Shown: one piece after another, positions 20,367 to 57,301 of the stretch | Numbering within the stretch: the first letter of the stretch is position 1 | Layout of the letters: each line of letters starts with the position of its first letter | Source: Caldicellulosiruptor diazotrophicus | GTDB taxonomy: Bacteria > Bacillota > Thermoanaerobacteria > Caldicellulosiruptorales > Caldicellulosiruptoraceae | NCBI RefSeq assembly: GCF_017347585.1 | Contig: NZ_AP024480.1 | Coordinates: 1,882,001 to 1,946,000 of the forward strand | Direction: 5' to 3' | Length of the DNA: 64,000 nt | The notes under the pieces: model-generated | Databases searched by the model: none | The model's input: the letters and a program-made list of their open reading frames with translations, nothing else | Told to the model about the DNA's origin: nothing | Program-made: the position numbers and the translations under genes

Positions 20367-20368
20367 TT

Positions 20369-25833: not shown

Positions 25834-25852
25834 GTAGGCAAATAATCTTGCT

Positions 25853-29351: not shown

Positions 29352-29363
29352 GCAAAGGTTTGC
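29352..29363. promoter_or_regulatory. Short palindrome downstream of the pullulanase promoter
   Basis: GCAAAGGTTTGC has inverted arms GCAAA/TTTGC around GG, about 16 bases downstream of the -10 box. This is the position and shape of a LacI-family operator, but too short to assign. Confidence 0.3.
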
Positions 29364-29378
29364 CTTAACTTTGTAATG

Positions 29379-29407
29379 ATTATATATCTTTTTATTAAAA
29401 TTGTCAA
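29379..29407 (-). promoter_or_regulatory. Consensus sigma-A promoter of the starch operon
   Basis: On the minus strand TTGACA and TATAAT, both perfect, are separated by exactly 17 bases. The predicted leader to the pullulanase start is about 110 bases. This is the best promoter match noticed in the window. Confidence 0.8.
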
Positions 29408-29463
29408 TATGCTGCAATTTGAATAAATTAAAGACTTGAATTTATGAAAAGTAAATAAAAATA

Positions 29464-29489
29464 GCAGTCTCCACACACTGGAAGACTGC
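29464..29489 (-). terminator. Terminator after the 547-residue SLH gene
   Basis: On the minus strand GCAGTCT and AGACTGC pair around a 12-base loop and are followed by TATTTTTATTT. It separates the galactan locus from the starch operon. Confidence 0.75.
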
Positions 29490-29517
29490 CGTATAGAAAA
29501 GTTGTAAAGTTTATTTT

Positions 29518-31161: not shown

Positions 31162-31211
31162 TACTAAAATCCTCCTTTTAGGATTATAGCCTTATAAAAC
31201 CTTTAAAATCT

Positions 31212-31242
31212 GCCCGGCAACCACTAAAAATAGTTGCCGGGC
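31212..31242 (-). terminator. Hairpin between GH53 galactanase and SLH genes
   Basis: The arms GCCCGGCAAC and GTTGCCGGGC form a perfect, very GC-rich stem in an AT-rich region. On the minus strand only AGATTTTAAAG follows, so termination is probably partial. Confidence 0.65.
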
Positions 31243-31252
31243 GGTTAAAACC

Positions 31253-34200
31253 TCATCGAAGATCAACAGGCTCAGCAAGACTATTTGGAACAGAAAGGCT
31301 TGTGTCAAATTTGTCAAATACAAATACTTTTACCCTGTAGTCAGTGCTCAGATAATCACTTACATTAAAATAGGCCTTAAAATCTTCAGCTTCTACTACA
31401 TCCTTTTCAACAGCAACAACTGAAACAGGAGTTGTCCCTTTTAATAGTTCAAACACCACAACTTCTCTGCTATCGTGCTGAATACCTTCTGATTGTTTTA
31501 CCGTAACACTTGCAATAAGTCCTTTATCTTTTTGCATGCTTGCATTTGAAATTTCAAATTCCCTGTCAGCAACCTTGAAAAATTCTACATCGTCAAGGTT
31601 GCACCATGTCCCTCCTGCATTCTCTGAATCTGAATAAAGCCCTATTGTAACGCGTCCAGTGGTAACCTTAATGTTAGCAATTACCATTCTATGCCATTCA
31701 GCAACCCATTTGGTTGGCATATTTATTCTCAGTTCTTCCCCGCCATAGTCTTTTACAAACAAGTAGTTAGCATTCTGACCGCCGCCACCATTTGCAAAGG
31801 CTCTGAAGATGTATATACCATTTGGTATATTTTCAATTGTTTGATATGTGACCACCTTGTAAGGTTTGTCACTCCAGTGAGTAAGCTGCGCTGTCCCAGA
31901 ATGCCCACCACTTTCAGTTTTGACTGCATTTGTATTTCCTTCACTTATCCAATACTTTAGTCCTTCTTCAAAACTGTAATTTTTTATAAGGTTTTTGCTG
32001 TTGATAACTTTGACTTTGGCATATGCTTTTAGAGTCGTGCCTTCTACAGTACCAGTCACAGTAAATTCACCAATCGCTGAGTATTTACTCTCATCAATAG
32101 CTTCCCATGTAACACTTGCCTCAGAGGATGTATCATCATCATAAACCACCATGACAGTTGGCGGAAGCTGTGGCTTTTGCCCTACCTCTGTTGTAATATC
32201 TAATCTTTGAATGCTCACTATATTCTTTTCGATATCTGGGTCCTGGCGATAGAACAGAACATCGTCTATTGCACACCAGAAACCTGAATCAGCAGTAATT
32301 TCAAATGAAATTGTGCACTTTCCTGTTGTCACACTAATATCATTTATTTCAGCAGGTGTCCAAGCATCCCATGAAGCTGACTGTGGAATTTGCATTCTTA
32401 TCTCCTGTCCACCATAATCCTTTATTACAATATCACGTTTTTGAGCACTACCAGTGTTAACAAACCATGCTTTAAATGTATACTTGCCTTGCCCTAAGCC
32501 TGTAATTGTCTGAGATATTACAAGATTGTATGGTGAGTTATACCAAATATTTAATTTCTTATTACCTGAACGGACAGGGGCGTTGCTGTTTGCATTTGCA
32601 GCTCCAGTCTGCCCTTCTATGTTCCAGCCAGTTAAATCTTCTTCAAATCCAGAATTTTGTATTAGATTAGCTACTTTTACTTTTGCAACAGGTGTAACCT
32701 CACTTCCTTCAACATGCCCGTAAACTTCAAAGCTACCAGCTTGAGTATATTTTGACGGATCAATACCGTCCCATGTGACATCAACCTCTTTTGTAAGACC
32801 ATTGCTCAAAATGGCTGTGATTTTAACAGGAAGTTTTGGCATCTCACCTGGAGTTGTTCCAACAACAATTGGTTTATAACCTACAATCATGATGTTATTG
32901 AGCATCTTGAACACATACAGAGAATCCAAAGCATTTCCATTAAAATCAAACATAGCTTGGTTATCCCATCCATTTCCTTCACCTGTCTTCCATCCAGCAC
33001 CTTCAACTGGTATCCAATCAGGCTCCCAATAGAATATGCCAAGTCCTTTGCCATCTGGAACTTGTGCTACAGCGTTTGCAATGTTTCTAATAACCAGTGC
33101 TTGATTTTGGACTGATGGCTCATACCAGGCTGTTGCAGCTTCCCTTGTGCCAAAGATATTATTCAGTCCATCTCCATTTTCTAAAGTGTATGCATACGCT
33201 GTTTCTGCAATAACTACCTCTTTGTTATATCTTTTGCTAATATCATTCATATTGTAGATTAAATCACTAAGCTTTCCATGCCAGTATGGGTAATATGAAA
33301 GTCCAATTACATCAAACTTAACATCGCGCTGGGTCAAATTGTCAAATACTCTTCTGTATAATTCATTGTCCCCGCCATTTGCAAGGTGAATCATAATCTT
33401 TACCTGATTATCCGCCCCAGCTGCATCTTTTACACCTCTAATCCCTGCCTTTAGAAGCTCTGCAAAATTGTCATATCCTCCAGCATCTTCGCCCCATGTT
33501 TTTCCGTCCGGCCAGAGCATACCGCCATTAACCTCATTTCCAACCTGAACCATGTCAGGAAGTGCACCTTGATCTTTGTACATTTTTATGACGTCATAAG
33601 TATACTGGTAAACTGCCTGTTTTAGCTGGTCAAATGAAAGATTTGCCCATGCTTTTGGTTTGTCTTGCTTTCCCGGGTCTGCCCAAAAGTCACTATAATG
33701 AAAATCAAGCAAAAGTTTTATACCTAAAGCTTTTGCTCTTTTTGCAATTTCCAGCATATTCTCTGCACTGCAATTTCCACCTCCCAATGGATTACCATTG
33801 ACATCTTTTGGATCATTCCATATTCTAAGCCTTATCCAGTTAACTCCAAAATATTTCAAAATCTCAAGTGCATCCATCTGGACTCCGTTCAAATAGAACT
33901 TACCGCCACAATCTTCTATTTGTTTTAGCATTGATACATCTGCGCCCTTTATGAAAGTATCACCAACCATTTTGTATACTCTCAGCTCCTTTATTGAAGC
34001 TGGCTGATTGTTTGGTGTTGAGGTGATTGTGACACGGATATATCTTATCCCTGAGGCAGATGGTATGAACTTGTCATACTGTGTTTGTGAAGTGTCAGTA
34101 TTGTTTGATTTGTCTACTAATACTGTCCACCTATTGTCATCTATTGAATATTCAATTTTATACTGATAGCTCCCATTACCATTAAAAACTATTTCGGTTG

Positions 34201-34501
34201 CAAAAAGGTCTTTATAAACATCTCCCAAATCAATCTTCAGCCAATGAATGCCTGCATCCTGTGCACTCCAAAAAGTAGTCTCATCACCGTCATTTGCAAG
34301 GGTTGCCTGATGTGTTGGGGCTTCACTGTCAGAAAAAATATTTTTGCCTACAGCTATATTAGGACCAATTGGGTCAACTTTTATCCCAATTTGCTTCTTT
34401 ACCTGAGCTGAACTCTGTGCAAAGACCTTGGTTGGCAACAAAGGAAAAGCAAAAGAAATGACAAAAATGAAGAATACAAAAATAGCAAATGTTCTTTTCA
34501 T
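31253..34501 (-). CDS. Secreted GH53 endo-1,4-beta-galactanase with multiple binding modules
   Basis: This 1082-residue secreted enzyme hydrolyses beta-1,4-galactan side chains of pectin. It has a signal peptide (1-29), then an F5/8-type (CBM32-like) module (about 48-178). The GH53 barrel (about 182-545) has acid/base E323 in QVGNEVNGG and nucleophile E433 in VIAETAYAYT. Two repeats of an Ig-like domain plus a CBM61-like galactan-binding module (LIQNSGFEEDLTGW and LIKNYSFEEGLKYW) follow, and a final Ig-like region. There is no SLH repeat. The ATG at 34501 is preceded by AAGGAGTG. An in-frame start at 34564 has no such site and no signal-like sequence. It lies downstream of an Lpl-type transporter. 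Confidence 0.95.
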   Translation of the reverse strand: MKRTFAIFVFFIFVISFAFPLLPTKVFAQSSAQVKKQIGIKVDPIGPNIAVGKNIFSDSEAPTHQATLANDGDETTFWSAQDAGIHWLKIDLGDVYKDLFATEIVFNGNGSYQYKIEYSIDDNRWTVLVDKSNNTDTSQTQYDKFIPSASGIRYIRVTITSTPNNQPASIKELRVYKMVGDTFIKGADVSMLKQIEDCGGKFYLNGVQMDALEILKYFGVNWIRLRIWNDPKDVNGNPLGGGNCSAENMLEIAKRAKALGIKLLLDFHYSDFWADPGKQDKPKAWANLSFDQLKQAVYQYTYDVIKMYKDQGALPDMVQVGNEVNGGMLWPDGKTWGEDAGGYDNFAELLKAGIRGVKDAAGADNQVKIMIHLANGGDNELYRRVFDNLTQRDVKFDVIGLSYYPYWHGKLSDLIYNMNDISKRYNKEVVIAETAYAYTLENGDGLNNIFGTREAATAWYEPSVQNQALVIRNIANAVAQVPDGKGLGIFYWEPDWIPVEGAGWKTGEGNGWDNQAMFDFNGNALDSLYVFKMLNNIMIVGYKPIVVGTTPGEMPKLPVKITAILSNGLTKEVDVTWDGIDPSKYTQAGSFEVYGHVEGSEVTPVAKVKVANLIQNSGFEEDLTGWNIEGQTGAANANSNAPVRSGNKKLNIWYNSPYNLVISQTITGLGQGKYTFKAWFVNTGSAQKRDIVIKDYGGQEIRMQIPQSASWDAWTPAEINDISVTTGKCTISFEITADSGFWCAIDDVLFYRQDPDIEKNIVSIQRLDITTEVGQKPQLPPTVMVVYDDDTSSEASVTWEAIDESKYSAIGEFTVTGTVEGTTLKAYAKVKVINSKNLIKNYSFEEGLKYWISEGNTNAVKTESGGHSGTAQLTHWSDKPYKVVTYQTIENIPNGIYIFRAFANGGGGQNANYLFVKDYGGEELRINMPTKWVAEWHRMVIANIKVTTGRVTIGLYSDSENAGGTWCNLDDVEFFKVADREFEISNASMQKDKGLIASVTVKQSEGIQHDSREVVVFELLKGTTPVSVVAVEKDVVEAEDFKAYFNVSDYLSTDYRVKVFVFDKFDTSLSVPNSLAEPVDLR

Positions 34502-34635
34502 TTTTTGTTTCACTCCTTTATTGTTGTTTAAAATAAGGCAAGAATCTACCTCAAAAATTTGCATTTCACAATAAGCTACTCTATAATTTAATTAATAAAA
34601 CTTCTTTATGCTCTTTTTTCTAACTTAATTAGTGT

Positions 34636-34711: not shown

Positions 34712-36301
34712 TTACTGATTTCTCTCCTTGAAGTATTGCTCAAGCTGTCTTAGCGCTTCAGCTTTGACCTTGTCAACACCTGCTGCTTTGAGCTTTTTGT
34801 CAAGTGTTGCAAAAGCTTCATCCACATTCTTTACCATACCCAAACAGATTGGATTGTAATACTGTGTCATAACGCTGTTTAGGTTTGCAATCTCAGTTTT
34901 TACCTTTGTCTGGTCAAGTGAGAATGAAGATAGTGGTGAGCTTACAAGCGCCTTCTTGATTGTGTTTCTTAGTGCAATGTAGTTATCATCCCAGCTTGCA
35001 AGTGGTAAGAACTGGTCTTTATTTGTGAACCAGAACCCTGCAGCATCTGGCGGATAAGTGTTGTTATCTGGTGTAACACCTTTTGGTAAGTCAATTTTGT
35101 TGTTTTTGATTATATAGTTCTTGCCTTGAATTCCAAAGTATACAAGATAGTTGTAAGACTTTTCTTCCATAATAAGGTCAAGTGCCATAAGTGTTCTCTC
35201 TGCGTTTTTTGTCTTTGCAACAAGAGCAACGCCATTATTTATATATGGGTCTGCTGGTCTGTGACCTCTTTTATCAAATATTGGAATAATCTCAACCTTC
35301 CAACCTTTAGCTTTTGCATTTGCAAGATTGGACTGGATGTCTTGGCTATTTCCAAACGCAACTGCCGATTTTCCTTGGTCAAAAGCATCTTTGCTTCTCA
35401 CCTTATTAGCATAAGCATTTCTATTGATGTATCCTTTGTCGTACCATGATTTTACTTTCTTGGCTGCTTCTTTGAAAGCAGGCAAAATTTCTTTGTCCAT
35501 TATATAGTAAACTTTTGGTTTAGTGTCGTATATGGTTGTGAAAAGACCTGTTCCACCTGTTGAAACTCTTGCAACATCTTCTAAGTAATCTGTTTTTTCA
35601 ACCAAAAGTCTCCACATAACTGAGTTCAAATCATACTGGTTGTCCAAGTTCATTGGCATCATGCCTTTTTCATTTTTCTTTACTGCAGCAAGAAACGGCT
35701 CTATATCATTGTATTTTTTGATTGGTGGCAGCTTATATTTTTCTCTCAAATCTCCTCTCAAAATTACAACATCAGCTTTTCTGTCGGGTGTTGCAGTCGG
35801 AATCATGTAGATTTTCCCTTTTACCTTTGCTTCCTGCCATGCAACAGAAGGTGTTGCTTTGTAATGTCTTGGCATGTATTTTTTGATCATATCCATTGTA
35901 AGTTCCTTAAATCCACCTTTTGCAGCTTCCTGGAAGTAGAAACACCAATTTGCTGCATACATCCAATCAACATTCTCTCCTGATGCCAAAATAAGTGGAT
36001 ATTTGTAGTTCAAATCTCCCCATCCAATGTAGTTAATCTCCATTGTTGCGTTGATATCTTTTTGAAGTTTTTTGTTAAGCTCTTTCATAACGTTTGGAAA
36101 TTCAGCTGGTGCATCACCCAAAAGATAACCAACAATCTTGACAGGTTTTGATACATCAATGCTCGGGTCAAAACCGGGTGCAGTTCTTTTCGCTTTTGTT
36201 TGTGCACCAAAACCAACCGCAAACATTGAAACTAAAATGGTTGAAAATACAAAACATACCGTCAAGATGAGCACTAAAAGCCTGAAGTTCTTTTTCATCA
36301 T
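34712..36301 (-). CDS. Lpl-type ABC transporter substrate-binding protein (galactan locus)
   Basis: This 529-residue extracellular binding protein is of the large LplA/YtcQ type. The signal region (about 1-33) has a cysteine at position 16, but it is preceded by LTV rather than a good lipobox and lies inside the hydrophobic core. The conserved GYLLGDAPAEFPNVMKELNKKL and NGVALVAKTKNAERTLMALDLIM are typical of the family. GGGAGG precedes the ATG at 36301. It is the last gene of permease-permease-binding protein, followed by the GH53 galactanase gene. Galacto-oligosaccharides are therefore the likely cargo, which is inference. Confidence 0.92.
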   Translation of the reverse strand: MMKKNFRLLVLILTVCFVFSTILVSMFAVGFGAQTKAKRTAPGFDPSIDVSKPVKIVGYLLGDAPAEFPNVMKELNKKLQKDINATMEINYIGWGDLNYKYPLILASGENVDWMYAANWCFYFQEAAKGGFKELTMDMIKKYMPRHYKATPSVAWQEAKVKGKIYMIPTATPDRKADVVILRGDLREKYKLPPIKKYNDIEPFLAAVKKNEKGMMPMNLDNQYDLNSVMWRLLVEKTDYLEDVARVSTGGTGLFTTIYDTKPKVYYIMDKEILPAFKEAAKKVKSWYDKGYINRNAYANKVRSKDAFDQGKSAVAFGNSQDIQSNLANAKAKGWKVEIIPIFDKRGHRPADPYINNGVALVAKTKNAERTLMALDLIMEEKSYNYLVYFGIQGKNYIIKNNKIDLPKGVTPDNNTYPPDAAGFWFTNKDQFLPLASWDDNYIALRNTIKKALVSSPLSSFSLDQTKVKTEIANLNSVMTQYYNPICLGMVKNVDEAFATLDKKLKAAGVDKVKAEALRQLEQYFKERNQ

Positions 36302-36331
36302 ACAATCAACCTCCCTGATTCATTTTAATCT

Positions 36332-36367
36332 ATATCAACAGGCATTACAAAAAATACCTGTTGATAT
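36332..36367 (-). repeat. Hairpin between permease and binding-protein genes
   Basis: The arms ATATCAACAGG and CCTGTTGATAT are perfect 11-base complements with a 14-base loop. No T-run follows on the minus strand. A similar hairpin lies at the same place in the second Lpl operon (52831-52880). Confidence 0.65.
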
Positions 36368-36372
36368 CATTT

Positions 36373-37251
36373 TTAGCCTTTTACAGCACCAAGTGTAATA
36401 CCTCTGACAAAATACCTTTGAACAAACGGGTACAAGAAAATTATTGGACCTGTTGCAACAACTGTCATTGCAAGTTTTAAAGATTCTTTGGGCATGTCTA
36501 TTCGCACAACATTTTGTAGAATATTTGCCGCAACATTGACACTTGACAGGATTAAATACAGCGTATACTGCAAAGGATACAAGCTCTGTTTTTCGATGAA
36601 CATCATCGGTGTCCACCAATCGTTCCAGTAATTAAGAGCTATAAAAAGTCCAATAGATGCCAAAGCTGGTTTTGAAAGTGGCAAAACAATTCTTAAGAAT
36701 ATTGTAAAATCTCCTGCGCCGTCAATTTTTGCTGACTCTATCAAAGAGTCTGGAATAGAACCTCTAATAAAGTTGCGCAAGATTAAAATGTAAAATACAT
36801 TGAAAAGTGGCACAAGTATGAGAACAAGTACATTGTTTTTTAAATGATAGTAATTTGCTAATATTATATAGTACGGAGCAAGGCCACCGTTAAAAAGTGT
36901 TGTGAAGTATAGGAAGAAAGCCAATGTATTTCTATATTTTACATCTTTTCTGTACATAACATACGCAGCCATTGTGGAAAGAAACAACGACAAACTTGTG
37001 CCAACACTTGTTACTATAATGGTTACCAAATAAGCTCTGAAAATTCTTTGAGGATTTTGGAAAATGAGCTTGTATGCACTGAGTGAAAATTCTCGTGGAA
37101 TCAAAGTGTAACCGTGGTTTATAATATAGTTTTCTGAAGCAAACGAACTTACCACAAGCACAACAAAAGGTATGAAGGTAAATAGCCCGATTATTGTTAT
37201 AAATATATATCCAATAATGTTAAAGAGGATATAATCCTTACCCTTTCTCAA
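36373..37251 (-). CDS. Lpl-type ABC transporter permease (LplC/YtcP type)
   Basis: This 292-residue membrane protein has six helices and the contact motif IESAKIDGAGDFTIFLRIVLP. The C terminus FVRGITLGAVKG is typical of the LplC/YtcP group. The start codon is a TTG at 37251 with GGGGAG six bases before it. It follows the LplB-type permease by 26 bases and forms the channel with it. Confidence 0.94.
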   Translation of the reverse strand: MRKGKDYILFNIIGYIFITIIGLFTFIPFVVLVVSSFASENYIINHGYTLIPREFSLSAYKLIFQNPQRIFRAYLVTIIVTSVGTSLSLFLSTMAAYVMYRKDVKYRNTLAFFLYFTTLFNGGLAPYYIILANYYHLKNNVLVLILVPLFNVFYILILRNFIRGSIPDSLIESAKIDGAGDFTIFLRIVLPLSKPALASIGLFIALNYWNDWWTPMMFIEKQSLYPLQYTLYLILSSVNVAANILQNVVRIDMPKESLKLAMTVVATGPIIFLYPFVQRYFVRGITLGAVKG

Positions 37252-37277
37252 TGTTCTCTCCCCTTTTAAGTCAAGAT

Positions 37278-38198
37278 TTAGAACAGTGCATAGTCTTTGT
37301 CATATCTTCTGACAAGCCAGTTGACAAACATTATAATTACAAAGCACAGCACAGACTGATAAGCACCTGCTGCTGACGCCATCCCAATATCCTGAACCTG
37401 CATGAGACTTCTGAACACAAGAGTGTCTATGATATCTGTATAGTCAAGCAAAAGACCGTTATTACCTATTATCTGATAAAACATATCAAACTCGCCACGC
37501 AAAATTCTTCCAAGTGCAAGCAAAATCAATATTATCATTGTCGGTTTTAACATCGGGATTGTGATATAAAAGATTCTCTGGAAGATATTTGCGCCATCAA
37601 TTATTGCTGCCTCATAACACTCTTCGTCAAATCCCATTATAGCTGCAAGATATAAAACGCTTCCGTAACCTACCCATTTCCATACATATAACATTGGCAA
37701 AAGGAAATACCAGTAAGTAGGATTTGAGTAGATATCTATAGGCTCACCACCAAGGTTTTTTATCAAGGTGTTAATAAGACCATAATCATAGTTGAAAAAG
37801 TTATACATCATGGCTGCTACAACAACCCACGATACAAAATACGGTAAAAACATGACAGACTGGATGAACTTTTTAAATATCTTACCTGCAAGCTCAGCTA
37901 TAAAAATTGCGCACGCAACTGAAAATACTGTGTATGCAGCTAAAAAAGCTAAGTTGTAAAGAATAGTGTTTTTTGTGACAAGCCAAGCTCTGCCCGAAGC
38001 AAAGAAATACTCAAAGTTTTTGAAGCCGTTCCATGGACTGAAAAGTATTCCATCTCGATAGTTGAACTCTTTAAAAGCAAGAACAATTCCACCCATTGGT
38101 ATGTAGGCAAACAGAATGTAGTAAATTGCTACTGGTAAGAACATGGCATAAAGTACTTTGTTCTTTTTTATTTCGTGCCAAAAACCATTCTTCTTCAA
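37278..38198 (-). CDS. Lpl-type ABC transporter permease (LplB/YtcO type)
   Basis: This membrane protein of about 306 residues has six helices and the contact motif YEAAIIDGANIFQRIFYITIP. It forms the transporter with the next two genes. The start chosen is a TTG at 38198, because AAAGGAG lies nine bases before it. A further in-frame TTG at 38234 lacks a ribosome-binding site. It lies after the terminator of the histidine kinase gene, so the transporter probably has its own promoter, perhaps controlled by the neighbouring YesN-type regulator. Confidence 0.92.
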   Translation of the reverse strand: MKKNGFWHEIKKNKVLYAMFLPVAIYYILFAYIPMGGIVLAFKEFNYRDGILFSPWNGFKNFEYFFASGRAWLVTKNTILYNLAFLAAYTVFSVACAIFIAELAGKIFKKFIQSVMFLPYFVSWVVVAAMMYNFFNYDYGLINTLIKNLGGEPIDIYSNPTYWYFLLPMLYVWKWVGYGSVLYLAAIMGFDEECYEAAIIDGANIFQRIFYITIPMLKPTMIILILLALGRILRGEFDMFYQIIGNNGLLLDYTDIIDTLVFRSLMQVQDIGMASAAGAYQSVLCFVIIMFVNWLVRRYDKDYALF

Positions 38199-38344
38199 TT
38201 TCTGCCACTCCTTTGTAGTGATTGAACAAATCAATTATTTTAGTTTCTTATATTTCTTATTATAAAAGGTCAGTTAAAAATTCATATCAGACAAAATTAA
38301 TATTTTCTTTGTAAAATTAAGATGATAAAAATTGCAAAAAAATA

Positions 38345-38370
38345 AAAGCTGGCCTTTCAAAACCAGCTTT
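38345..38370 (-). terminator. Terminator after the histidine kinase gene
   Basis: On the minus strand AAAGCTGG and CCAGCTTT pair around a ten-base loop and are followed by TATTTTTTTGC. Confidence 0.8.
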
Positions 38371-38419
38371 CCTATCTTTTTGAGCATTGCAAGGAGAAAA
38401 AATTAAAATGCTGCTGTGG

Positions 38420-40204
38420 CTATTCTTCCACAGGAAACAGGACTTTTACAACTGTTTTCTCGTTGATTTTGCTCTCGTAAAACAGTCCAGCTTCATTTCC
38501 AAAATAGATTTTTAATCTCTCATTTATATTTTTTATACCAAAACCATGTCCTTTTGACGTCTCAACTTCTCCTTTCTTTATCTTTTCAAGTACTTCTTTA
38601 CTGATTCCAACGCCATCGTCAATGACACATATCGCAGCCATTTTGTCATCTAATATTTCGCCTTTTATGATTATAGTACCTTTCTGCTCGTCTTTTTCCA
38701 AAATTCCATGGTGAATAGAATTTTCAACAAGCGGCTGAAGTGTCAGTTTTGGTATCCGCGCTTTTAGAAGTTTTTGTGGAACATCTATCTTAAGGTCAAT
38801 GCAGTTGTCAAACCTGTAATTTTGAATCATCACATAGGCTTTTACATGTTCTATCTCATTTTCCACTGTTACTACATCCTCACCCTTGCTAAGACTTAAT
38901 TTATAAAATTGAGAAAGAGAGGTTACAAGCCTTGAAATATCTTCATTTTTGTTCTTAATTGCAATCCAGTTTATAAGGTCAAGGGTGTTGTACAAAAAAT
39001 GCGGATTTATCTGGGACTGAAGAGCTTTGAGCTCTAAATTTTTCTTCTCTTTCCCAAGCTGGTATTGTTCATGCAAAAGTTCTTTTATCTTTTTTAGCAT
39101 ATAGTTAAACGTATATATGAGCTGTCCAACCTCGTCTTGAGAGTGTGAATCCAGTTCTATATTAAAATCACCTTTTTCAATTACTTTTTTCATATTATAA
39201 GTAAGCCTTTTAATTCTTGATGTACTTGATGTCGCTGCCCAAAAAGAAAATATTAAAGTAAAAGGTGCAATCAAGAATATCATGAAAAATACCTGTTTAA
39301 TAGTCTTTATATTAAGCTCATGAATCTCTTTGTAAGGTGTAACAAGTACAAGATACCAATCTGTATCACTAATATTCCTTGTTCGAATAAGAAGTTTCTC
39401 ACCCTCTACTTCCATTTCAACAACATTTGCCTCTTGAGATAATATATTTTCTTTTATTCCTTTTATTATATCTTTCACAGATAAATTTGTTCCATTTAAA
39501 GAACGTGCAACAACTTCACTATTTGAATTGACAATAAAAGCAAGTGTTCTGTTTGTAAATAAAGCCTGATTTAGTATTCTTTCAATTTCAGTAATTGAGA
39601 TATCAGCTCTGAGGGCAGCTCTGTATTCACTAATATTCTTAGGGTCTGGAATCAGTCTTATCAAAGACACAATATCTTTTCGTGCAACATTAAGCATTTT
39701 GGGGGTAACCCAAGCAAAAAGCTCCCCTTTTAAAACCATCTGCTGATACCATGGAAGCTTCTCTATCCGTTCAAAGAGAAAATAGCTGTCTGTCTCGCTA
39801 AGTTTTGCCAATCCCTGTGTCATATAAATTGAGATGCTAAGTATATCGAAATTTTGGCATGTGCTGTAAAAAAGTTTTGTTAATCTTTGGGAATCTACAA
39901 GCCAGTTACCTATATTTTCGTAGTAATAATCATCTGGCCTGTTTACAAGCTCTTGCACAGTTGAATCAAGAGCTAAAATGTTCAGTACATTTTTGACTGA
40001 TGAGACCCTGTTTTCTAAGAAAGAAACTGTCTGGTCCACAATCTTGCCAGAAGAATAAATAGCCTGTTTTTCCACATCCCTTCCAACAATAACATAGTTC
40101 ATAAAAGAAAATATACCAAATGATATTAAAATCACAAACATATATGAAGCAAACAATTTGTATTTTATACTCATATTTGAAAAAGTATTTGCGATCATTT
40201 TCAT
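38420..40204 (-). CDS. YesM-type sensor histidine kinase (galactan locus)
   Basis: This 594-residue membrane kinase has two membrane helices (about 17-38 and 295-320) around a double-Cache-type outer domain. A HAMP domain, a His_kinase domain with INPHFLYNTLDLINW (the phosphorylated histidine is in NPHF), and an ATPase domain with LVENSIHHG, IDDGVGIS and GHGFGIKNINERL follow. It overlaps the response regulator stop codon by four bases (ATGA), so the two are translated together. It lies directly before an Lpl-type transporter and is likely to sense a sugar or a binding-protein complex. The ligand is not known. Confidence 0.94.
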   Translation of the reverse strand: MKMIANTFSNMSIKYKLFASYMFVILISFGIFSFMNYVIVGRDVEKQAIYSSGKIVDQTVSFLENRVSSVKNVLNILALDSTVQELVNRPDDYYYENIGNWLVDSQRLTKLFYSTCQNFDILSISIYMTQGLAKLSETDSYFLFERIEKLPWYQQMVLKGELFAWVTPKMLNVARKDIVSLIRLIPDPKNISEYRAALRADISITEIERILNQALFTNRTLAFIVNSNSEVVARSLNGTNLSVKDIIKGIKENILSQEANVVEMEVEGEKLLIRTRNISDTDWYLVLVTPYKEIHELNIKTIKQVFFMIFLIAPFTLIFSFWAATSSTSRIKRLTYNMKKVIEKGDFNIELDSHSQDEVGQLIYTFNYMLKKIKELLHEQYQLGKEKKNLELKALQSQINPHFLYNTLDLINWIAIKNKNEDISRLVTSLSQFYKLSLSKGEDVVTVENEIEHVKAYVMIQNYRFDNCIDLKIDVPQKLLKARIPKLTLQPLVENSIHHGILEKDEQKGTIIIKGEILDDKMAAICVIDDGVGISKEVLEKIKKGEVETSKGHGFGIKNINERLKIYFGNEAGLFYESKINEKTVVKVLFPVEE

Positions 40205-41763
40205 ACATAATACCTCTCTCTAAATTCAGATGGAGTCATCCCAACCTTCTTTTTGAACAAGGCTGAGAAATAATTCGGGTCTCCAAACCCAACTCTCTCT
40301 GCAATCTCATATAGCCTGATGCTATTATCTTTTAGAAGCTGTTTGGCTTTTTCAATTCTGACCTCAGTTATATAATCGTTAAGTGTCTTACCAGTTGCTT
40401 TTTTAAACATACTACATAAATAATTCGGACTGAAATAAAAATGGTTAGCTATCTTTTGAACACTCAGATGCTTGTCATAGAAGTTTTCTTCAATAAACCT
40501 CATTATTCTATATACCTTTCGATTTAAATTGACACGTGTTGTAAATAGATCAAATATCTCGTCAAGCGTCTCATAAATAACCTCTTTTAACTGGTTTAAA
40601 GTAAACTTTTGTTCTATTTCATGCCACTTTTTTGATCTCCCAGCCTCATCCAAAAGTTGCGTTATTTTTCTTTGTCTCCCTACTTGGTATGCAATCAATA
40701 TCATCTCAAAAAATATATTTTTAACCTTTTCAATCTCAATATTCTGGTTTGACCTTAGCCAAAAATATAGTTTCTCAATTTCTTCTTTTGCTTTTTTTAT
40801 CTCATCCTTTTTCAGATACTCCTCAAATTTTTCAAAGTCAAAACTAACTTCCTGTTCTCTTTTGCCAACAAAACCTTCATATGTATATATATTACCAAAA
40901 CCATTATAAAATACATTTCTCTTGAGCAACTTGAACATGCTTTCTACGGTTTCTTTTGCTTGACTTGTATTTATTGAGTTAGCAATCATCAAAGAAATCT
41001 CTGCTTTCTGTAATAAAGCTTCTTTTAGTATATTTACTGCCTTGTTTATGTCAATCCCACTTTTTTCGCTGCAGATAAGAACAAAACTGCTCTGTGATAA
41101 AAACGAAAATAACACAGAAATTCTTGATGCAAAGTCTTGACCCAAAACTTGTTTATAAATTTCTTTTGATATTATCCCATCCGAACAAGCCTCTTCAGTC
41201 TTCCAGTCTACAAATCCAACAATAACATCTAATGTTGATGTTAAAAAATGTTCGGCAGCATGTTTTTGGAAAATGCTATAATCTGTATAGTCTTTTAATA
41301 GCTGCTGAACAAGCTGTGTAGCAGCATAATATATACTCTCACTGTAATGTTCTTTCAGTCTTTCTTTTTCTTCCTCTTCTTTTCTCTCAAACTCTATAAT
41401 CTCCACAACTTTTTTCATAGTGCTTTTAATCTTTTCTATATCGAGAGGTTTTTCAATGTAGTCAACTGCATTTAAACGAATGGCTGATAAAAGATACTCT
41501 TTTTCAGCATAGCCACTTATAAAAACTATTTTACATTTTGGGAAAATATTTTTTAATCTCCTAGAAAACTCTATACCATCCATCCGTGGCATTCTTACAT
41601 CGCACAGCAGAATATCGGGAGTGTAAGTTTTTACAATTTCTAAAGCTTCTTGACCATTTTTAGCACTCTTAATTTCTCCAATCCCAAACTCATTCCATGG
41701 TATCAGTGTTTCAAGACTTTCTCTTGTTATTCTTTCATCTTCTACAATTAAAAGTTTAAACAT
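40201..41763 (-). CDS. YesN-type response regulator with AraC DNA-binding domain (galactan locus)
   Basis: This 520-residue protein has a receiver domain (1-120) with acidic pocket ED near residue 8 and the phosphoacceptor D55 in LLCDVRMPRMDG. A middle region of about 250 residues follows. The C-terminal AraC/XylS DNA-binding domain (about 420-520) has two helix-turn-helix units (SVQKIANHFYFSPNYLCSMF and RLYEIAERVGFGDPNYFSALF). GGGAGG precedes the ATG at 41763. It is expected to activate the downstream transporter and galactanase genes when phosphorylated by the adjacent kinase. Confidence 0.95.
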   Translation of the reverse strand: MFKLLIVEDERITRESLETLIPWNEFGIGEIKSAKNGQEALEIVKTYTPDILLCDVRMPRMDGIEFSRRLKNIFPKCKIVFISGYAEKEYLLSAIRLNAVDYIEKPLDIEKIKSTMKKVVEIIEFERKEEEEKERLKEHYSESIYYAATQLVQQLLKDYTDYSIFQKHAAEHFLTSTLDVIVGFVDWKTEEACSDGIISKEIYKQVLGQDFASRISVLFSFLSQSSFVLICSEKSGIDINKAVNILKEALLQKAEISLMIANSINTSQAKETVESMFKLLKRNVFYNGFGNIYTYEGFVGKREQEVSFDFEKFEEYLKKDEIKKAKEEIEKLYFWLRSNQNIEIEKVKNIFFEMILIAYQVGRQRKITQLLDEAGRSKKWHEIEQKFTLNQLKEVIYETLDEIFDLFTTRVNLNRKVYRIMRFIEENFYDKHLSVQKIANHFYFSPNYLCSMFKKATGKTLNDYITEVRIEKAKQLLKDNSIRLYEIAERVGFGDPNYFSALFKKKVGMTPSEFRERYYV

Positions 41764-46265: not shown

Positions 46266-46296
46266 AAAAGGGGCAATTCTTGCGTACCCCCTTTTT
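46266..46296. terminator. Terminator between the convergent MFS and response-regulator genes
   Basis: AAAAGGGG and CCCCCTTTTT pair around a 13-base loop. It touches the stop codon of the minus-strand gene and serves the plus-strand gene best. Confidence 0.7.
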
Positions 46297-47935
46297 AATC
46301 GCTTACTTTTTCGCCTTTTAGTTTTATACCTTCTTTGTATTCAGAAGGACTATAGCCAGTGTAGCGTTTAAAAAGTCTTGAAAAATAGTGTGGATCTGGA
46401 ATACCAACCCTGTCAGCAACTTCATATGTTTTAAGGTCGGTTGTAAGTAAAAGATGCTTTGCTTTTTCTATTCTATACTCATTTATAAAATCCGAAAGAT
46501 TTTTCCCTGTCTCTTTTTTGAACAACCTGCTTAAATATGATGGACTTACAAAAAATTTTTCTGAAATATCACTGAGTGAAATCTCACCTGAGTTATAGTT
46601 ATCTTTTATGTAGTCAATCACCTTTTTTATTAAGCTCCCCATTTTGTTTTGGTTGTGTTTTTGAACTTCTTCGATAGTTTGTTGAATAGACATTCGTAGG
46701 ATACTACTTAATTCTGACAAATTTTTGCATTTAATAATCTCATTGAAATAATCTATATCTTCAAACATCTCTGGATTTTCGGATTTATTAACAGCCGAAG
46801 AAAGTTGAGCTTTTATCATATTTATTTCAATGAGAAGAAGATAGTAAAAATTAAAGATATACTGTTTATCTGCTTTTGACTTTTTCAAGGTCTCTTCGAG
46901 CTCAAGCAAGAGATTATTTATATTTGAGTAATTTCCATATCTGACACTTGACAAAATTTCATTCTTAAGATTCTTTAACTTTCTGTCATCCATATACATG
47001 AAAAAATGTGAAAGGTCCTTATAATATATTATATCATCTTCATCAAAATAAAATCTGTAATTTATTGCATCAATGCATTCTTTAAATTTATCTGGAAGTT
47101 GCACAATTCCATTACCACACGTACTTACTGCAAGTGTCAAATCAATATTGAAACATTCAACTGCAGCTTTTTTAAGTTGGCTCAAAAGATCAAAGAATTT
47201 TTTCTCTTCTTCTTTTTCAAATTCTTTATTTGAATTTACAATATATACCGCTTGAGAGTTATTCAAATAAATAGTATAAATTGTAAAATTGTTGCTCAAA
47301 AAATCATTTAGCATATTTGAGATTCCCAAAAGATATAAATGAGAATTTTTTCTCTCTCTTTCTTCTTTTGTACTACACTCAGCTAAAATCATTAAAAATT
47401 TACCAATATCAATCTCATAAAGAGATGCCATCTGGAGAATCTCATCTTCATTGGAAATCATCTCAAATATGACATTGAACAAAAAATTTTCTTTTAAAAT
47501 TGGCAATTTCTCTTTCAAAATGTTATTTATCTTTTCTAACTCCTCAACTATTGTCTTTTCTTTTTTAATCTCGTTTATAGCTTTTTGCACAACATTTATT
47601 ATATCTTCCACCTTAGTTGGTTTTAAAAGAAAATCAAAAGCACCGTATTTTATAGCTCTCTGTGCGTACTCGAACTCTCTGTAAGCCGTTAAAATCACAA
47701 TCTTACACTGAGGAATAATCTTTCTAATTCTTTCTATAAGTTCAATTCCATCCATATTAGGCATTTTTATATCTGTTATTACAATATCTGGTTTTACTTC
47801 TTCAATCACTTTTAAAGCTTCATCTCCACTTGAAGCCTCAGCACAAATTTCACATTCTATATCTTTCCATCTTATTACATTTCTAATTCCTTTTCGAATA
47901 AGCATATCGTCATCCACTATTACAATTTTATACAT
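46295..47935 (-). CDS. YesN-type response regulator with AraC DNA-binding domain (second locus)
   Basis: This 546-residue protein has a receiver domain with D55 in IVITDIKMPNMDG, a long middle region, and a C-terminal AraC DNA-binding domain (about 440-540: SLSDISEKFFVSPSYLSRLF, TYEVADRVGIPDPHYFSRLF). The start chosen is the ATG at 47935, which overlaps the kinase stop codon by eight bases. The bases GAAGGGGAAG before it serve as a ribosome-binding site. It is the last gene of the tethered binding protein - kinase - regulator unit, and ends at a convergent terminator. Confidence 0.94.
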   Translation of the reverse strand: MYKIVIVDDDMLIRKGIRNVIRWKDIECEICAEASSGDEALKVIEEVKPDIVITDIKMPNMDGIELIERIRKIIPQCKIVILTAYREFEYAQRAIKYGAFDFLLKPTKVEDIINVVQKAINEIKKEKTIVEELEKINNILKEKLPILKENFLFNVIFEMISNEDEILQMASLYEIDIGKFLMILAECSTKEERERKNSHLYLLGISNMLNDFLSNNFTIYTIYLNNSQAVYIVNSNKEFEKEEEKKFFDLLSQLKKAAVECFNIDLTLAVSTCGNGIVQLPDKFKECIDAINYRFYFDEDDIIYYKDLSHFFMYMDDRKLKNLKNEILSSVRYGNYSNINNLLLELEETLKKSKADKQYIFNFYYLLLIEINMIKAQLSSAVNKSENPEMFEDIDYFNEIIKCKNLSELSSILRMSIQQTIEEVQKHNQNKMGSLIKKVIDYIKDNYNSGEISLSDISEKFFVSPSYLSRLFKKETGKNLSDFINEYRIEKAKHLLLTTDLKTYEVADRVGIPDPHYFSRLFKRYTGYSPSEYKEGIKLKGEKVSD

Positions 47936-49796
47936 TGTTCTCTTCCCCTTCACCAGAAAATTCCTGTAAACTTTCTTCTACCACTCTTGAAAGAGCGTCT
48001 AACAGAATTTCAATCTTTATAGTAGTGCCTCTCTGTGGCAAGCTTTCAATTGAAAAATCTGCATCCTTCCCATATATAAGTTTTAATCTTTTTACCACAT
48101 TCACAAGCCCTATTCTTGTGTATGACCTTTCCTCCTGTTCAAGCAAAACCTCACTGTTATTTTCTAAATCCTGACGTATCCCTTTTAATTTTTCAGCTGG
48201 TATCCCCACCCCATCATCTTTTACAATTATGGTAAGCTTGTCGTTCCAAATATAACCACCTACAAATATTCTGCCAAAACCTTTTGGTCTTATGCCGTGA
48301 AAGATAGAATTTTCTACAAGAGGCTGAATTAGCAGTTTAGGAATTCTAAGTTTTAAAGCTTTTCTGTCTACATCTATTTCAAGCTTTAAGTTCTCTTCAC
48401 CAAAGTTTATCTTCAAAATTGAAATGTAAGAGGTTATGTATTTTATCTCTTCCTCTAAGGTTAAGAACTTTTCTTCTTTTAGATTCACTTCTAAGAGCTT
48501 TGAAAGTGCAATGACAACATCGCTTATTTGGGATACACCATTTAGCTGTGCAAGCCAGTTAATCGATTCCAAAATGTTAAACAAAAAATGTGGATTTAAC
48601 TGAGTTTGCAAAACTTTTATTTCTGCTTCTTTTCGTGTTATTTGTTCCTTATAAATTGAATTTATCAGATGATTTATTTTCACAACCATACTGTTAAAGT
48701 TATCAATTAGAATACCAAGTTCATCCTTTCTCTCAAGATTCTCTATCGTCTTGTATTCACCTTTTCTTATTTTCTTTGTTGCTTCCACAATAGCATTAAT
48801 TGGTTTTAATAAGTCCATTGAAAGCATCAGCGACATTGCAGACGTTATTACAAACGACAAAAAACATAAAACTATAAGCCACATTCTTAGCTTTTCTATA
48901 TCTTTGAACAATATTTTAACAGGAATAGATGTTACTATATACCAATCCAGTTGTTTTATAGGTAAAATATTGACAATATATTCGCTTGAGGTATATGTAA
49001 CAACCCCGTTCTTATTTTTTGCCCGCGACATGAATTTGAGAATCTTTCCTCTATTTATTTCACCCTTTGTTGAAATAAATATACCACTTCCTACCACTGC
49101 AATTGCCTGACTTTTTTCTGCAACAAGTTCAGAAAATGTCTTGTTAAAAAGCTCTGTGTTTACCATAACAGCTAAAATTCCTTCAAATTTTAATGTTTTA
49201 GGGTTATTTATACACCTTGTTATTAAGACCGCCGCTTTGCTCTCTTTGTCTTTTTTAAGCAAAGTTACATACCAAACAGGTTTCCCATTTCCTTTTGCAG
49301 CTATTTTGTATATTTCCTCTAAAGATATCTGAGACGATATTATTTCGTCAAGTCCTATTTCTTTTGAAGTGTTATCAACTATACACAGCTTCTTATCTTT
49401 TGTAAATATACCTATTGACTGAACATCAAGGTGTCCTAAGATTATTTTGCGAAACTTGTTTGTAAGTGAAGTGACATCATCATAATAATCAACATTTTTA
49501 ATTGATTTATCTAAAACATTGTACAGTTCTGCTTGATACAAAATGTCCTGAGTTATGCTGTTAAGTTCATTTATCTTATCAACAATACGCAGTCTTGCTG
49601 TTTTTATAACATCAGAGGTGTATCCTACGTATTTTTTGAATATCAAATCTGACGAAATTCTAAAACTTAAAACCCCAATGAGGATTATTGGAATGAATAT
49701 TTGAATATAAGAAATGGTTAAAAATTTTTTATCTATGGAAATGGTACGATAATATTTAATAAAGCTCTTGAAAATCAACTTCATCTTTTTTAACAT
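47928..49796 (-). CDS. YesM-type sensor histidine kinase (second locus)
   Basis: This 622-residue membrane kinase has membrane helices at about 25-45 and 300-322. Between them is a double-Cache-type outer domain. A HAMP region (DLLKPINAIVEATKKIRKGEY), the phosphorylation motif LNPHFLFNILESINW, and an ATPase domain with LVENSIFHGI and VKDDGVGIP follow. It starts two bases after the stop codon of a membrane-tethered binding protein gene. The binding protein may present the bound sugar to this kinase, an arrangement known for the unrelated XylFII-LytS pair. That is inference. Confidence 0.94.
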   Translation of the reverse strand: MLKKMKLIFKSFIKYYRTISIDKKFLTISYIQIFIPIILIGVLSFRISSDLIFKKYVGYTSDVIKTARLRIVDKINELNSITQDILYQAELYNVLDKSIKNVDYYDDVTSLTNKFRKIILGHLDVQSIGIFTKDKKLCIVDNTSKEIGLDEIISSQISLEEIYKIAAKGNGKPVWYVTLLKKDKESKAAVLITRCINNPKTLKFEGILAVMVNTELFNKTFSELVAEKSQAIAVVGSGIFISTKGEINRGKILKFMSRAKNKNGVVTYTSSEYIVNILPIKQLDWYIVTSIPVKILFKDIEKLRMWLIVLCFLSFVITSAMSLMLSMDLLKPINAIVEATKKIRKGEYKTIENLERKDELGILIDNFNSMVVKINHLINSIYKEQITRKEAEIKVLQTQLNPHFLFNILESINWLAQLNGVSQISDVVIALSKLLEVNLKEEKFLTLEEEIKYITSYISILKINFGEENLKLEIDVDRKALKLRIPKLLIQPLVENSIFHGIRPKGFGRIFVGGYIWNDKLTIIVKDDGVGIPAEKLKGIRQDLENNSEVLLEQEERSYTRIGLVNVVKRLKLIYGKDADFSIESLPQRGTTIKIEILLDALSRVVEESLQEFSGEGEENNV

Positions 49797-49798
49797 CT

Positions 49799-51139
49799 TT
49801 ATTCACCCAATTTTTTTATATTCTCTTCCCACGCTTTGATTGCTATTTCCCAAAACAGTTTTGAAGATATTGTCCCTTGAAGATAATAAGGAATATTTTT
49901 TGTAATAACCTCTTCCCAAACCGTTCTATCAACAAAATGGTCAGGCGGTGCAACAAACACATTAGCTTCTTTTATAAGCCCTTCCACCTTCGACCTCAAA
50001 GGATTTTTGACATTTGGTTGATCTTTTATCTTTACATTCGAAATCAACCCTGTCCTTTCAACAAATATTCTTGCAACTTTTTCAGATGTCAAATATTTTA
50101 ATATTTCTATTGCCCAGACTCTTTTTGTGTTATCTTGCCAGGCTTGAGTGCTCACATAAAATGTTCCCCCGCCAAGACCATAAATTAAGTGTTTTTTGTC
50201 AGTACCATTTACTTGGGGAAAAAAATATATATCAACTGTCTTAGGATCACATTTAGGTATGAACCATGAACCTTGAACAATCATTGCAGCTTTTTTTGTT
50301 AAAAATAAATCATTTCGTTGTTTGCTGGTAAGTGAATAATAGTTTGTCGGAAATGCACCGACTTTGTATAGTTCCTTTAAATAATCAAGTGCTTTTATGT
50401 AAGGATCTGAAAACTTTCCATTTTTTATTGGATTTTCTACATCATGTTTTGTTCCAATCGAAACAATAATATTCTGATATATGTATGTTCCTTCTGGCTG
50501 GGCATTGAATGCAATTGGAATAATCCCTTTACTCTTCAGTATTTTTGAGACATTTATTAATTCATTAAGTGTTTTAGGAACTTGCAAATTGTATTTTTCA
50601 AATATGTCCTTGTTAACAAATAAGCACTCAACTATTGTTTCAAGTGGAACACCATAAATCCTTTTATTGAAAGTTACATACTTCCACATGTTAGGATAAA
50701 AACTTTGATACCACTTTACATCTCTTTTAATTACATCTGTCAAATCAGCTATTTGATGTCTTTGTATTAGCAAATCTCTAACAGAACCTGGAAAAAGTCC
50801 AAAAACATCAGGCGGATTTCCAGATGCGAAATCTGTTTGGAGTTTTATCAAAAAATCATCACCAAACAGAGATTCGTTTACAATAGTTATGCCAGTATTT
50901 TCTTCTTGAAACTTTTGAAGAACAAACGATAGCGTATCAGCATACGGATCACTCCCTCCCCATGGACTTAGAAACCTTATTTTTGTGTTAACTTCTAATT
51001 CCTCATTTTCAATAGTCACACTCTCTTCAACAGTTTTTTGAGTGTTCAAGATTAACACAATTATTAGCACAATCGTAGTTACAAGAGGTACAAAAAAACC
51101 TATAGAAAGAATATGTCTTTTATTAAATAATTCTTTCAT
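49799..51139 (-). CDS. Membrane-tethered MalE-type sugar-binding protein, probable kinase co-sensor
   Basis: This protein of about 446 residues is a family-1 (MalE-like) binding domain (about 60-440: KIRFLSPWGGSDPYADTLSFVL, NPPDVFGLFPGS, MIVQGSWFIPKCD). Before it is one membrane helix (11-32) with no signal-peptidase or lipobox site, so it is likely to stay anchored. No permease or ATPase gene is adjacent on its side. The next two genes are a kinase and a regulator with tight spacing. It is therefore probably a sensor rather than a transport component. The ATG at 51139 follows a weak AGGG. A start at 51169 is possible. Confidence 0.87.
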   Translation of the reverse strand: MKELFNKRHILSIGFFVPLVTTIVLIIVLILNTQKTVEESVTIENEELEVNTKIRFLSPWGGSDPYADTLSFVLQKFQEENTGITIVNESLFGDDFLIKLQTDFASGNPPDVFGLFPGSVRDLLIQRHQIADLTDVIKRDVKWYQSFYPNMWKYVTFNKRIYGVPLETIVECLFVNKDIFEKYNLQVPKTLNELINVSKILKSKGIIPIAFNAQPEGTYIYQNIIVSIGTKHDVENPIKNGKFSDPYIKALDYLKELYKVGAFPTNYYSLTSKQRNDLFLTKKAAMIVQGSWFIPKCDPKTVDIYFFPQVNGTDKKHLIYGLGGGTFYVSTQAWQDNTKRVWAIEILKYLTSEKVARIFVERTGLISNVKIKDQPNVKNPLRSKVEGLIKEANVFVAPPDHFVDRTVWEEVITKNIPYYLQGTISSKLFWEIAIKAWEENIKKLGE

Positions 51140-51243
51140 AAAAATCACAACCCTAAAACTCTTCAACATTGAGTACTTTATTCTATTTTAGCTCATATTG
51201 ATACAAAATCACAATCCGTTTATTTTAATTTTTAGCAACAAAA

Positions 51244-54791: not shown

Positions 54792-54978
54792 TTCTGATGC
54801 CGTCTCCTTTCTCAAGGTTATTATTAAAAGCTTTTATTCAGCTTTTTGGACTTTCCGTTTATAGTTTACATCCTATTTTAATTAAAATGAATTGATAAAA
54901 TTGCAGTCTTTTTGTGAATTATTGATATTAAAATGTGCAATATTTTGTCATATTGGAGTGTCAAAATAATATAAAAAT

Positions 54979-55033: not shown

Positions 55034-57301
55034 TCATAGCTTACCTGCTAAGTTCAAGATGTTATAGAAAATTGTTGCCGCCTCCCCTCTTGAAATGCTC
55101 TTACTTGGTGCAAATGTTCCGTCTGAATACAGGTCAATAATACCGAGCTGAATAGCTAACTTCACACTTTCTCTGTATTGAGGATTTATAAGATTTTCAT
55201 CGACAATCTGAATATCTTCTGTGCTAACTTCTATTTTACCTGTTAATCTTTTGTATACTTCAATTGCTAAAGCCACCACTTCTTCTCTTTTCATTGTATT
55301 TTCAGGAAATATTTTATTTCCATTTATTTCAAATAACCCATTTTTATATGCTGTATAAACCATATCTGTGTACCAGCTGTCACTTTTCACATCAGAAAAT
55401 CTATTATCATATTTTTCAATTTTCAAGTTCAATGCCCTGACACAAAGTGCAGCAAATTCAGCCCTTGTAATGTTTTTATCTGGCAAGTACTTAAATTCTG
55501 AAATTCCTTTTATGATTCCTTTAGAATAAAGTTTGGCAACAGCATCATAAAGGCTGCTCCCAAAATTGATATCTTCAAAAAGGACATTGGTAAATCTAAC
55601 ATTATCTATATACATTTTTCCTTTAAAATCGCTATTTCCATCTGCGATGACTACTATTACATCTCTTAAAAGCGTATCTTTGCCCAAAATTTTCCCATCC
55701 TGTATTTTGTCTAAGTCAAAAAATACATTGAATTTGTAAATTCCGTCTTCTATCTTTTTTGCACTTGAAAGTTTTGCCAAGTCGATATTAAAACTGTCTT
55801 GCACCTGGACCCAGTAACCTAAGGAAGGTGGTGAAAAAGCTAAAAATATCTGAATCATACCTTTTGAAGCTCTATCTGGCTTTAAATAAAAATCAAAAGC
55901 CAAATATTTGTTATCTTCCCTTTTGGTATTTATGTCTTTAAGTATAAGTCTTGCAGCTGTTGCCCAGCCATCTTGTGGTTTTTTCTCTGGATACTCAATC
56001 TCAAAAGATAGCGCTTTTGAACCATTTACACTTTCGATGGTAATAGGACCTTTTACACCAGATGGTCCATCCCAATCCCAGCCTTGACGTGTGTCATCTT
56101 CGAATGTGGAGGGTAAAACTTTTTCGCCTAAGGGTGCACTTTGTCCTTCTTTTTTTTGGCTATTCCTCTCAATTGGCTTATATGGAATTCCTTTTATTCT
56201 TGATCTCACATACTCGCCAGATATACTCAGTTCTTTTATATCCCATACTTTATCATCACCTGGGTCAAGTGATGTAGCATTATTTATACCACTTATATAT
56301 GAAACAAAAGCAGCTGATGTTTCATTTTTGTTTGACAGTGACCAGTTCACCCAGCTAATATAGTTTTCATTTAAATACTCAAGCCATTTGTCCGCCTCAT
56401 CAAGATATGGTCCACCATCACCGCTTGCCAAACTTGTTCCCCATTCGCTAACAAAAATTGGTACCCCATTTTCGAATGCATTTTTCATATTCTCAAAAAC
56501 ATAGCCATCAACCTTGTGAGTTCCAGAGTAAAAATGAACTGAATACATAACATTTTTATCATTTATAGGATCTTGGATAGCAAAGTCAGGTCTCTGGCTC
56601 CAATTGGGAGAACCTACAATTATAATGTTTTGATTCCCCAAACTTCTGAGCATCTGTATAATAGGCTGTGCGAAAGATTTTACCTTTTTCCAACCATCCA
56701 AACTATTTTCTACTCCCGGTTCATTTGGATTTGGTTCATTGCAAACTTCATATATTATGTGATAGTCATTAGGAAAACTTGTAGCTATCTCTTTGAAAAA
56801 GTCTTTTGCCCCTTTGTAAATTTCAGCATTCGGGTCGCCGGGATTTAATACATGCCAGTCAACAATTACATACATATCATTTTCAATAGCAAGCTTAATT
56901 CCCTCTAAAACTTTTTCTTTGATACTTGGATTTGAAGCATAACCACCTTCACCCACATACATCGCAAGCCTTACAACATTGCACTCCCAATCTTTTGAAA
57001 GAGCTTCAAATGCATTTTTGTTTATAATATCACCATACCATTGAAGTCCATGTGTGCTCATACCACGAAGCTGGATTATTTCACCTTTTTGATCAGCTAA
57101 ATACTTTTTTCCGTTCTTTTCAATAATCTGCAGTCTACCAGCAATCGATGGTTTTTTAACTGCCTGATTGCCAAGAAGATTTGGGTATTTTTCTTTCTCA
57201 TACGGTATGCTCTGAGCAAACATAGGTAAAATTTTTAAAATAGAAACAATAAAAATAACTACCATCAAGAGTACACAAGTCTTTAGAACAATTTTTTTCA
57301 T
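55034..57301 (-). CDS. S-layer-anchored GH5 endoglucanase-type enzyme with CBM28 module
   Basis: This 755-residue surface enzyme has a signal peptide (1-30) and a GH5 barrel (about 50-370). The acid/base is E189 in IYEVCNEPN and the nucleophile is E286 in FVSEWGTS. A CBM17/28-type module (about 393-573: TFEDDTRQGWDWDGPSGV, YWVQVQ) follows, then three SLH repeats (about 575-750). The CBM28 type binds amorphous cellulose or beta-glucan, and the SLH repeats hold the enzyme at the cell surface. I recall Caldicellulosiruptor proteins of the same layout that act on CMC and xylan. AGGAGG precedes the ATG. It is transcribed separately from the adjacent Lpl transporter. Confidence 0.94.
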   Translation of the reverse strand: MKKIVLKTCVLLMVVIFIVSILKILPMFAQSIPYEKEKYPNLLGNQAVKKPSIAGRLQIIEKNGKKYLADQKGEIIQLRGMSTHGLQWYGDIINKNAFEALSKDWECNVVRLAMYVGEGGYASNPSIKEKVLEGIKLAIENDMYVIVDWHVLNPGDPNAEIYKGAKDFFKEIATSFPNDYHIIYEVCNEPNPNEPGVENSLDGWKKVKSFAQPIIQMLRSLGNQNIIIVGSPNWSQRPDFAIQDPINDKNVMYSVHFYSGTHKVDGYVFENMKNAFENGVPIFVSEWGTSLASGDGGPYLDEADKWLEYLNENYISWVNWSLSNKNETSAAFVSYISGINNATSLDPGDDKVWDIKELSISGEYVRSRIKGIPYKPIERNSQKKEGQSAPLGEKVLPSTFEDDTRQGWDWDGPSGVKGPITIESVNGSKALSFEIEYPEKKPQDGWATAARLILKDINTKREDNKYLAFDFYLKPDRASKGMIQIFLAFSPPSLGYWVQVQDSFNIDLAKLSSAKKIEDGIYKFNVFFDLDKIQDGKILGKDTLLRDVIVVIADGNSDFKGKMYIDNVRFTNVLFEDINFGSSLYDAVAKLYSKGIIKGISEFKYLPDKNITRAEFAALCVRALNLKIEKYDNRFSDVKSDSWYTDMVYTAYKNGLFEINGNKIFPENTMKREEVVALAIEVYKRLTGKIEVSTEDIQIVDENLINPQYRESVKLAIQLGIIDLYSDGTFAPSKSISRGEAATIFYNILNLAGKL

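Follow-up and report, generated by a model that had tools for sequence, protein, structure and literature searches.

A probable CuaDSR-type three-component cellobiose sensor in Caldicellulosiruptor diazotrophicus with an Athe_0598-type binding protein

In C. diazotrophicus, a thermophilic cellulose degrader, three consecutive genes coding for a MalE-fold binding protein, a YesM-type histidine kinase, and a YesN-type response regulator probably form a three-component cellobiose sensor of the CuaDSR type (estimated probability, about 0.8). The genes lie within a window of 64 kb, which is the whole stretch of DNA that was analyzed, and are listed with their neighbors in Table 1. Two aspects go beyond previously described systems: the strong evidence from gene context that proteins of the Athe_0598 type are dedicated sensor subunits, and a repeated change between lipid and helix anchors in this group, for which we consider the odds slightly better than even. 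According to the mechanism that we propose, the binding protein would be held in the membrane by an uncleaved N-terminal helix and would bind cellobiose outside the cell. Once closed, the binding protein would alter a preformed complex in which it meets the dCache outer domain of the kinase dimer, probably in a two-plus-two arrangement, upon which the kinase would phosphorylate D55 of the regulator. The regulator, in turn, would turn on two separate operons, that of a cello-oligosaccharide transporter (permeases and LplA-type protein) and that of a surface GH5 endoglucanase. We infer contact, activation, and target genes for the genus.

Table 1. Positions of the sensor genes, their parts, and neighboring elements in the window
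Feature	Position	Strand	Basis
YesN-type response regulator, AviR by published gene order	47935-46295 from ATG	minus	Pfam
YesM-type histidine kinase, 622 aa, AviS by published gene order	49796-47928	minus	Pfam, NPHF
Outer (dCache-fold) domain of kinase	48873..49667	minus	AF2 model, pLDDT 89.6
Binding protein, CuaD/Athe_0598 type, putative tethered cellobiose sensor	51139-49799	minus	SBP_bac_1, 446 aa
N-terminal membrane helix of binding protein	51017..51139	minus	Model residues 5-40; without lipobox or A-x-A after core
Promoter-like site TTGTGA-18-TAAAAT before sensor unit	51185..51214	minus	9/12 matches
Hairpin between transporter and sensor units, then TTTTGTTG; likely terminator	51279-51244	minus	Covariation
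LplA-type transport binding protein with DUF3502, Athe_0597 type	52810-51299	minus	Pfam
Permease (second)	53803-52898	minus	BPD_transp_1
Permease (first)	54815-53850	minus	BPD_transp_1
Conserved block 5' of permease operon, candidate regulator site	54884-54940, 57 bp	minus	Genus alignment
GH5-CBM17/28-SLH surface endoglucanase, celD, Athe_0594 type	55034..57301	minus	Pfam

A preliminary description of this DNA had named a MalE-type protein, a YesM-type kinase, and a YesN-type regulator separated by a 2-bp gap and an 8-bp overlap, respectively, with which both the coordinates and the Pfam matches agreed (the overlap being counted from the regulator ATG). The binding protein matched only SBP_bac_1 (3.5e-32) and SBP_bac_8. 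Its AF2 model (pLDDT 91) had a fold match to 4g68 with a Z score of 43.5, and 4G68 was the top sequence match as well. Translation probably begins at the ATG at 51139, since an extra base in two genomes of the genus shifts the upstream frame out of register. In the kinase, Pfam recognized His_kinase, HAMP, and HATPase_c domains and, weakly, dCache_1; the NPHF motif, which contains H403, was invariant. The regulator consists of Response_reg (2.2e-31) and HTH_18 (4.5e-22) domains, with D55 as phosphoacceptor by position in the translation.

The same logic of binding protein, LytS/YesM-type kinase, and YesN-type regulator is known from XylFII-LytS-YesN of Clostridium beijerinckii, where the binding protein belongs to the type I, XylF-like family and the ligand is xylose. 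No type I (XylF/RbsB-like) match was found by Pfam for the protein studied here. The preliminary description proposed that the trio would be a MalE-fold version of that logic, with XylFII as the nearest system, but had missed CuaD-CuaS-CuaR of R. cellulolyticum, a published and experimentally shown cellobiose-sensing three-component system with a family 1 (MalE-fold) binding protein modeled on 4G68 (PMC10384115); the proposed version is thus not the first. Gene context and homology to CuaDSR lend good support to its functional reading, in which the kinase has a sugar presented to it by the binding protein, but not to the claim of novelty. CuaDSR and the locus studied here are clearly homologous and have in common the MalE-fold protein, the YesM-type kinase, the YesN-type regulator with D55, the gene order, the cellobiose ligand (here measured on the ortholog from Anaerocellum bescii), and a nearby cellodextrin transporter with its own binding protein. 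They differ in the anchor, as CuaD is a lipoprotein and the protein here has a membrane helix (the mechanism probably does not need the lipobox), in affinity (20 nM for CuaD versus ∼3 µM for the A. bescii ortholog), and in the adjoining transporter, which is of the LplBC type here and of the MalFG type for CuaDSR, as seen in R. papyrosolvens. HptA-HptS-HptR of Staphylococcus aureus likewise comprises an extracellular binding protein that signals to the kinase outer domain in a complex; its ligand is glucose-6-phosphate instead of cellobiose, and the likeness considered here is one of mechanism (PMC8774646).

Orthologs of the binding protein were present in all 12 genomes of the genus, and the order binding protein-kinase-regulator was kept in each of them and in 44 loci of other Clostridia, which argues that it did not arise by chance. 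Relatives were drawn from named genomes, whose scan yielded 38 loci, and from the class of R. cellobioparum (18/391 genomes); of the 38 loci, 37 were readable, and one that stops at a contig edge (L070) was left out of the count. In a phylum-wide sample of 398 genomes, no strong match was found outside the genus. In each of 56 loci (12 from the genus, the 37 readable ones, and 7 further), the kinase gene lay 3' of the binding-protein gene and in the same orientation, although in one of them (L045) across a gap of 850 bp. In the 37 loci the kinase was homologous and was followed by the regulator wherever the contig was long enough. Related transport binding proteins had a kinase downstream in 0 of 38 cases and a permease in 37 of 38; directly 3', where a CUT1 transport protein has a permease of the same unit, all readable clade members had the kinase instead. 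Each genome held a single clade member, separated by a wide gap in profile score from the next binding protein (for example, E values of 1e-192 versus 1e-69). In the tree, the group joined the CuaD-type proteins, apart from transport binding proteins, with an SH-aLRT value of 92, the node not being starred. One of the loci, from R. papyrosolvens (L066), was arranged as published for cuaDSR-cuaABC of R. cellulolyticum; its CuaR measured 538 aa, and a large gene resembling cbpA came next. As a simple genome rule, a kinase gene behind that of a CuaD-clade binding protein may mark likely cellobiose sensors across Clostridia and separate receptor from transport subunits. In Cellulosilyticum ruminicola (L072, L101, and L108), the sensor binding-protein gene was split into two overlapping frames, either by a frameshift or by a sequencing error.

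Pairwise distances of the binding protein correlated more closely with those of the kinase core and the regulator (r of 0.80) than with those of the transporter proteins (r of 0.61 to 0.72). Once the kinase core was accounted for, the residual covariation between binding protein and kinase outer domain was weak (partial r of 0.19). Mirror-tree correlations were rejected as a sign of direct contact: they fit coinheritance of the three genes and did not single out the outer domain.

Directly upstream of the trio, on the same strand, are two permease genes and the gene for an LplA-type binding protein, contrary to the earlier statement that the binding protein had no transporter genes on its own side. 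This adjoining transporter probably forms a unit apart from the trio and has a binding protein to itself. The LplA-type gene ends 159 bp before the ATG of the sensor binding protein, and the interval contains a hairpin of 18 pairs, 5 of them with compensatory changes, which was found in all 10 genus sequences aligned; a terminator scan missed it because its loop of ∼10 bases exceeds the 8 allowed. The TAAAAT box 3' of the hairpin was also conserved in the genus sequences, while the number of promoter-like sites in the region was not clearly above that in shuffles. Since a covarying hairpin and a kept TAAAAT box precede the sensor gene, we favor the view that the trio forms a transcription unit of its own, separate from the transporter operon. 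In one genome (G008, locus L086), a transposase-like insertion of ∼1.5 kb lies in the sensor promoter, downstream of the LplA-type gene, and parts the transporter and sensor units. At its ends the insertion shows what looks like an 8-bp repeat, TGAAAAAT. With TTGACA at its end, close to the original −10 box, the insertion may have taken the place of the −35 element. Farther upstream, the block 5' of the permease operon, strongly conserved across the genus, contained TGCA-type repeats 34 bp apart in some genomes of the genus. A regulator motif shared by the transporter and endoglucanase promoters was considered and rejected: upstream of the endoglucanase gene, the element from the permease side did no better than shuffles, and the block therefore stays a candidate only.

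On the evidence of gene order and identity profile, this region is orthologous to athe_0594-0600 in A. bescii, published as celD-aviABCD with the regulators AviRS, where Athe_0598 (AviD) is filed as a transporter component and the kinase and regulator are treated as an ordinary two-component system (PMC8579813, PMC12838199). In vitro, Athe_0598 binds cellobiose only and Athe_0597 binds G2-G5 (Tjo et al.). The affinity of Athe_0598 for cellobiose was 2.84 µM versus 0.228 µM for the transport protein, that is, ∼10-fold weaker, the reverse of what CuaD shows; the stoichiometry obtained, n = 2.13, is unusual. In Tjo et al., athe_0594-0598 figures as a single induced unit, and a role of Athe_0598 in regulation is raised as a possibility, by analogy with CuaD; neither "histidine kinase" nor "two-component" is present in their text. 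The weak affinity, the unusual stoichiometry, and the treatment as a single unit weigh against the sensor reading. In C. bescii the published induced set consists of celD and aviABC, and in C. saccharolyticus of Csac_0678-0681; both end before the tethered protein.

Athe_0598-type proteins might instead be the second binding protein of the adjoining transporter, feeding cellobiose to the two permeases while the kinase senses something else, or, in a milder form, might have a dual role in delivery and signaling. In favor of this reading, which we nevertheless consider unlikely, athe_0595-0598 has been published as a single transporter that has two binding proteins, and the transporter lies directly upstream in the genus. 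A far more conserved binding protein (94.6 to 97.8% identity across the genus) already belongs to the transporter, and the sensor gene appears to have its own unit and is omitted from the published induced sets. Moreover, the gene remains beside the kinase even where the neighboring transporter belongs to a different class or is missing: the adjoining transporter was mostly of the LplBC type but of the MalFG type in the R. papyrosolvens locus and in L046, and none was recognized in the 10-kb flanks of the trio of Acidaminobacter sp. JC074 (L063). The latter trio (9989-14554) lies beside sulfatase-like genes and is possibly a sensor for another sugar. The context evidence that the Athe_0598-type protein is a dedicated sensor subunit is new and strong, and it would revise how a locus employed in cellulose engineering is interpreted. 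In A. bescii strain HTAB187, which lacks athe_0595-0598, the sensor subunit would be missing along with the transporter, so that the strain's loss of growth on cellulose could not be ascribed to transport alone.

The preliminary description had also noted an uncleaved-looking membrane helix, which was borne out in all 12 genus proteins. Each has an uncharged N-terminal stretch, of 22 residues in 11 and of 17 in one, and none of the 12 N termini contained a lipobox cysteine or an A-x-A-type cleavage site past the hydrophobic core; in two of them, T-L-A occurs within the core, not past it. The AF2 model consists of a single helix (residues 5 to 40), a low-confidence linker (38 to 48), and the MalE-fold domain from about residue 50. 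Within the genus, a missing lipobox is by itself uninformative, because most transport binding proteins of the genus also have no cysteine; several of them have A-x-A-like sites. In the wider clade outside the genus, a lipobox was found in 31 members and was absent from 14, which share the trio gene order, and at least 4 anchor changes were needed on the clade tree, from which the N-terminal columns had been left out. In three genomes whose sensor has the helix (G409, G412, and G414), the transport relatives examined were lipoproteins. We lean slightly toward the view that CuaD-clade sensor proteins switched between lipid anchor and uncleaved helix at least 4 times while the export signals of transport proteins in those genomes stayed ordinary. 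If so, the helix would make the sensor proteins permanent membrane-receptor subunits, and Athe_0598 would belong to a receptor and not to a transporter.

For the kinase outer domain, the model had a dCache-type fold with Z scores of up to 18.6 to dCache-type domains, and the order of its elements (long first helix, two cap helices, two sheets) was as described for CuaS-EC. A profile search of solved structures returned one weak match, 7k5n (E value of 0.0015). Fold comparison returned many dCache domains; LytS of the XylFII complex was not listed, which is uninformative either way. In R. cellulolyticum, CuaD binds CuaS with or without cellobiose, contact being shown by two-hybrid assay, and release brought about by the ligand is listed among known binding-protein/kinase systems (PMC10384115). 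Both points would fit a ligand-free binding protein that keeps the kinase off until cellobiose relieves it, i.e., release instead of activation, yet loss of CuaD lowered, not raised, growth on cellobiose and cellulose (PMC10384115), and we regard this alternative as rather improbable. That the kinase senses a small molecule directly via its dCache domain, with the binding protein a mere concentrator or modulator, is highly improbable: many dCache folds bind ligands directly and overproduced CuaSR without CuaD still answered cellobiose in R. cellulolyticum, but the CuaS outer domain bound no tested sugar, CuaD raised efficiency (PMC10384115), and the kinase neighbor was lost in no clade locus.

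Elsewhere in the window, a second LplA-type transporter (34712-41763) has its own kinase-regulator pair and no sensor binding protein, and so provides a natural two-component contrast to the CuaDSR-type trio. Consecutive genes at 22446-34564 code for large surface proteins, among them an SLH-CBM20 protein without a catalytic match, a pullulanase-type enzyme (PUD, CBM48, CBM20), an SLH protein, and a GH53 enzyme. Two neighboring proteins of 634 and 651 aa, encoded at 18462-22324, had zero Pfam matches.
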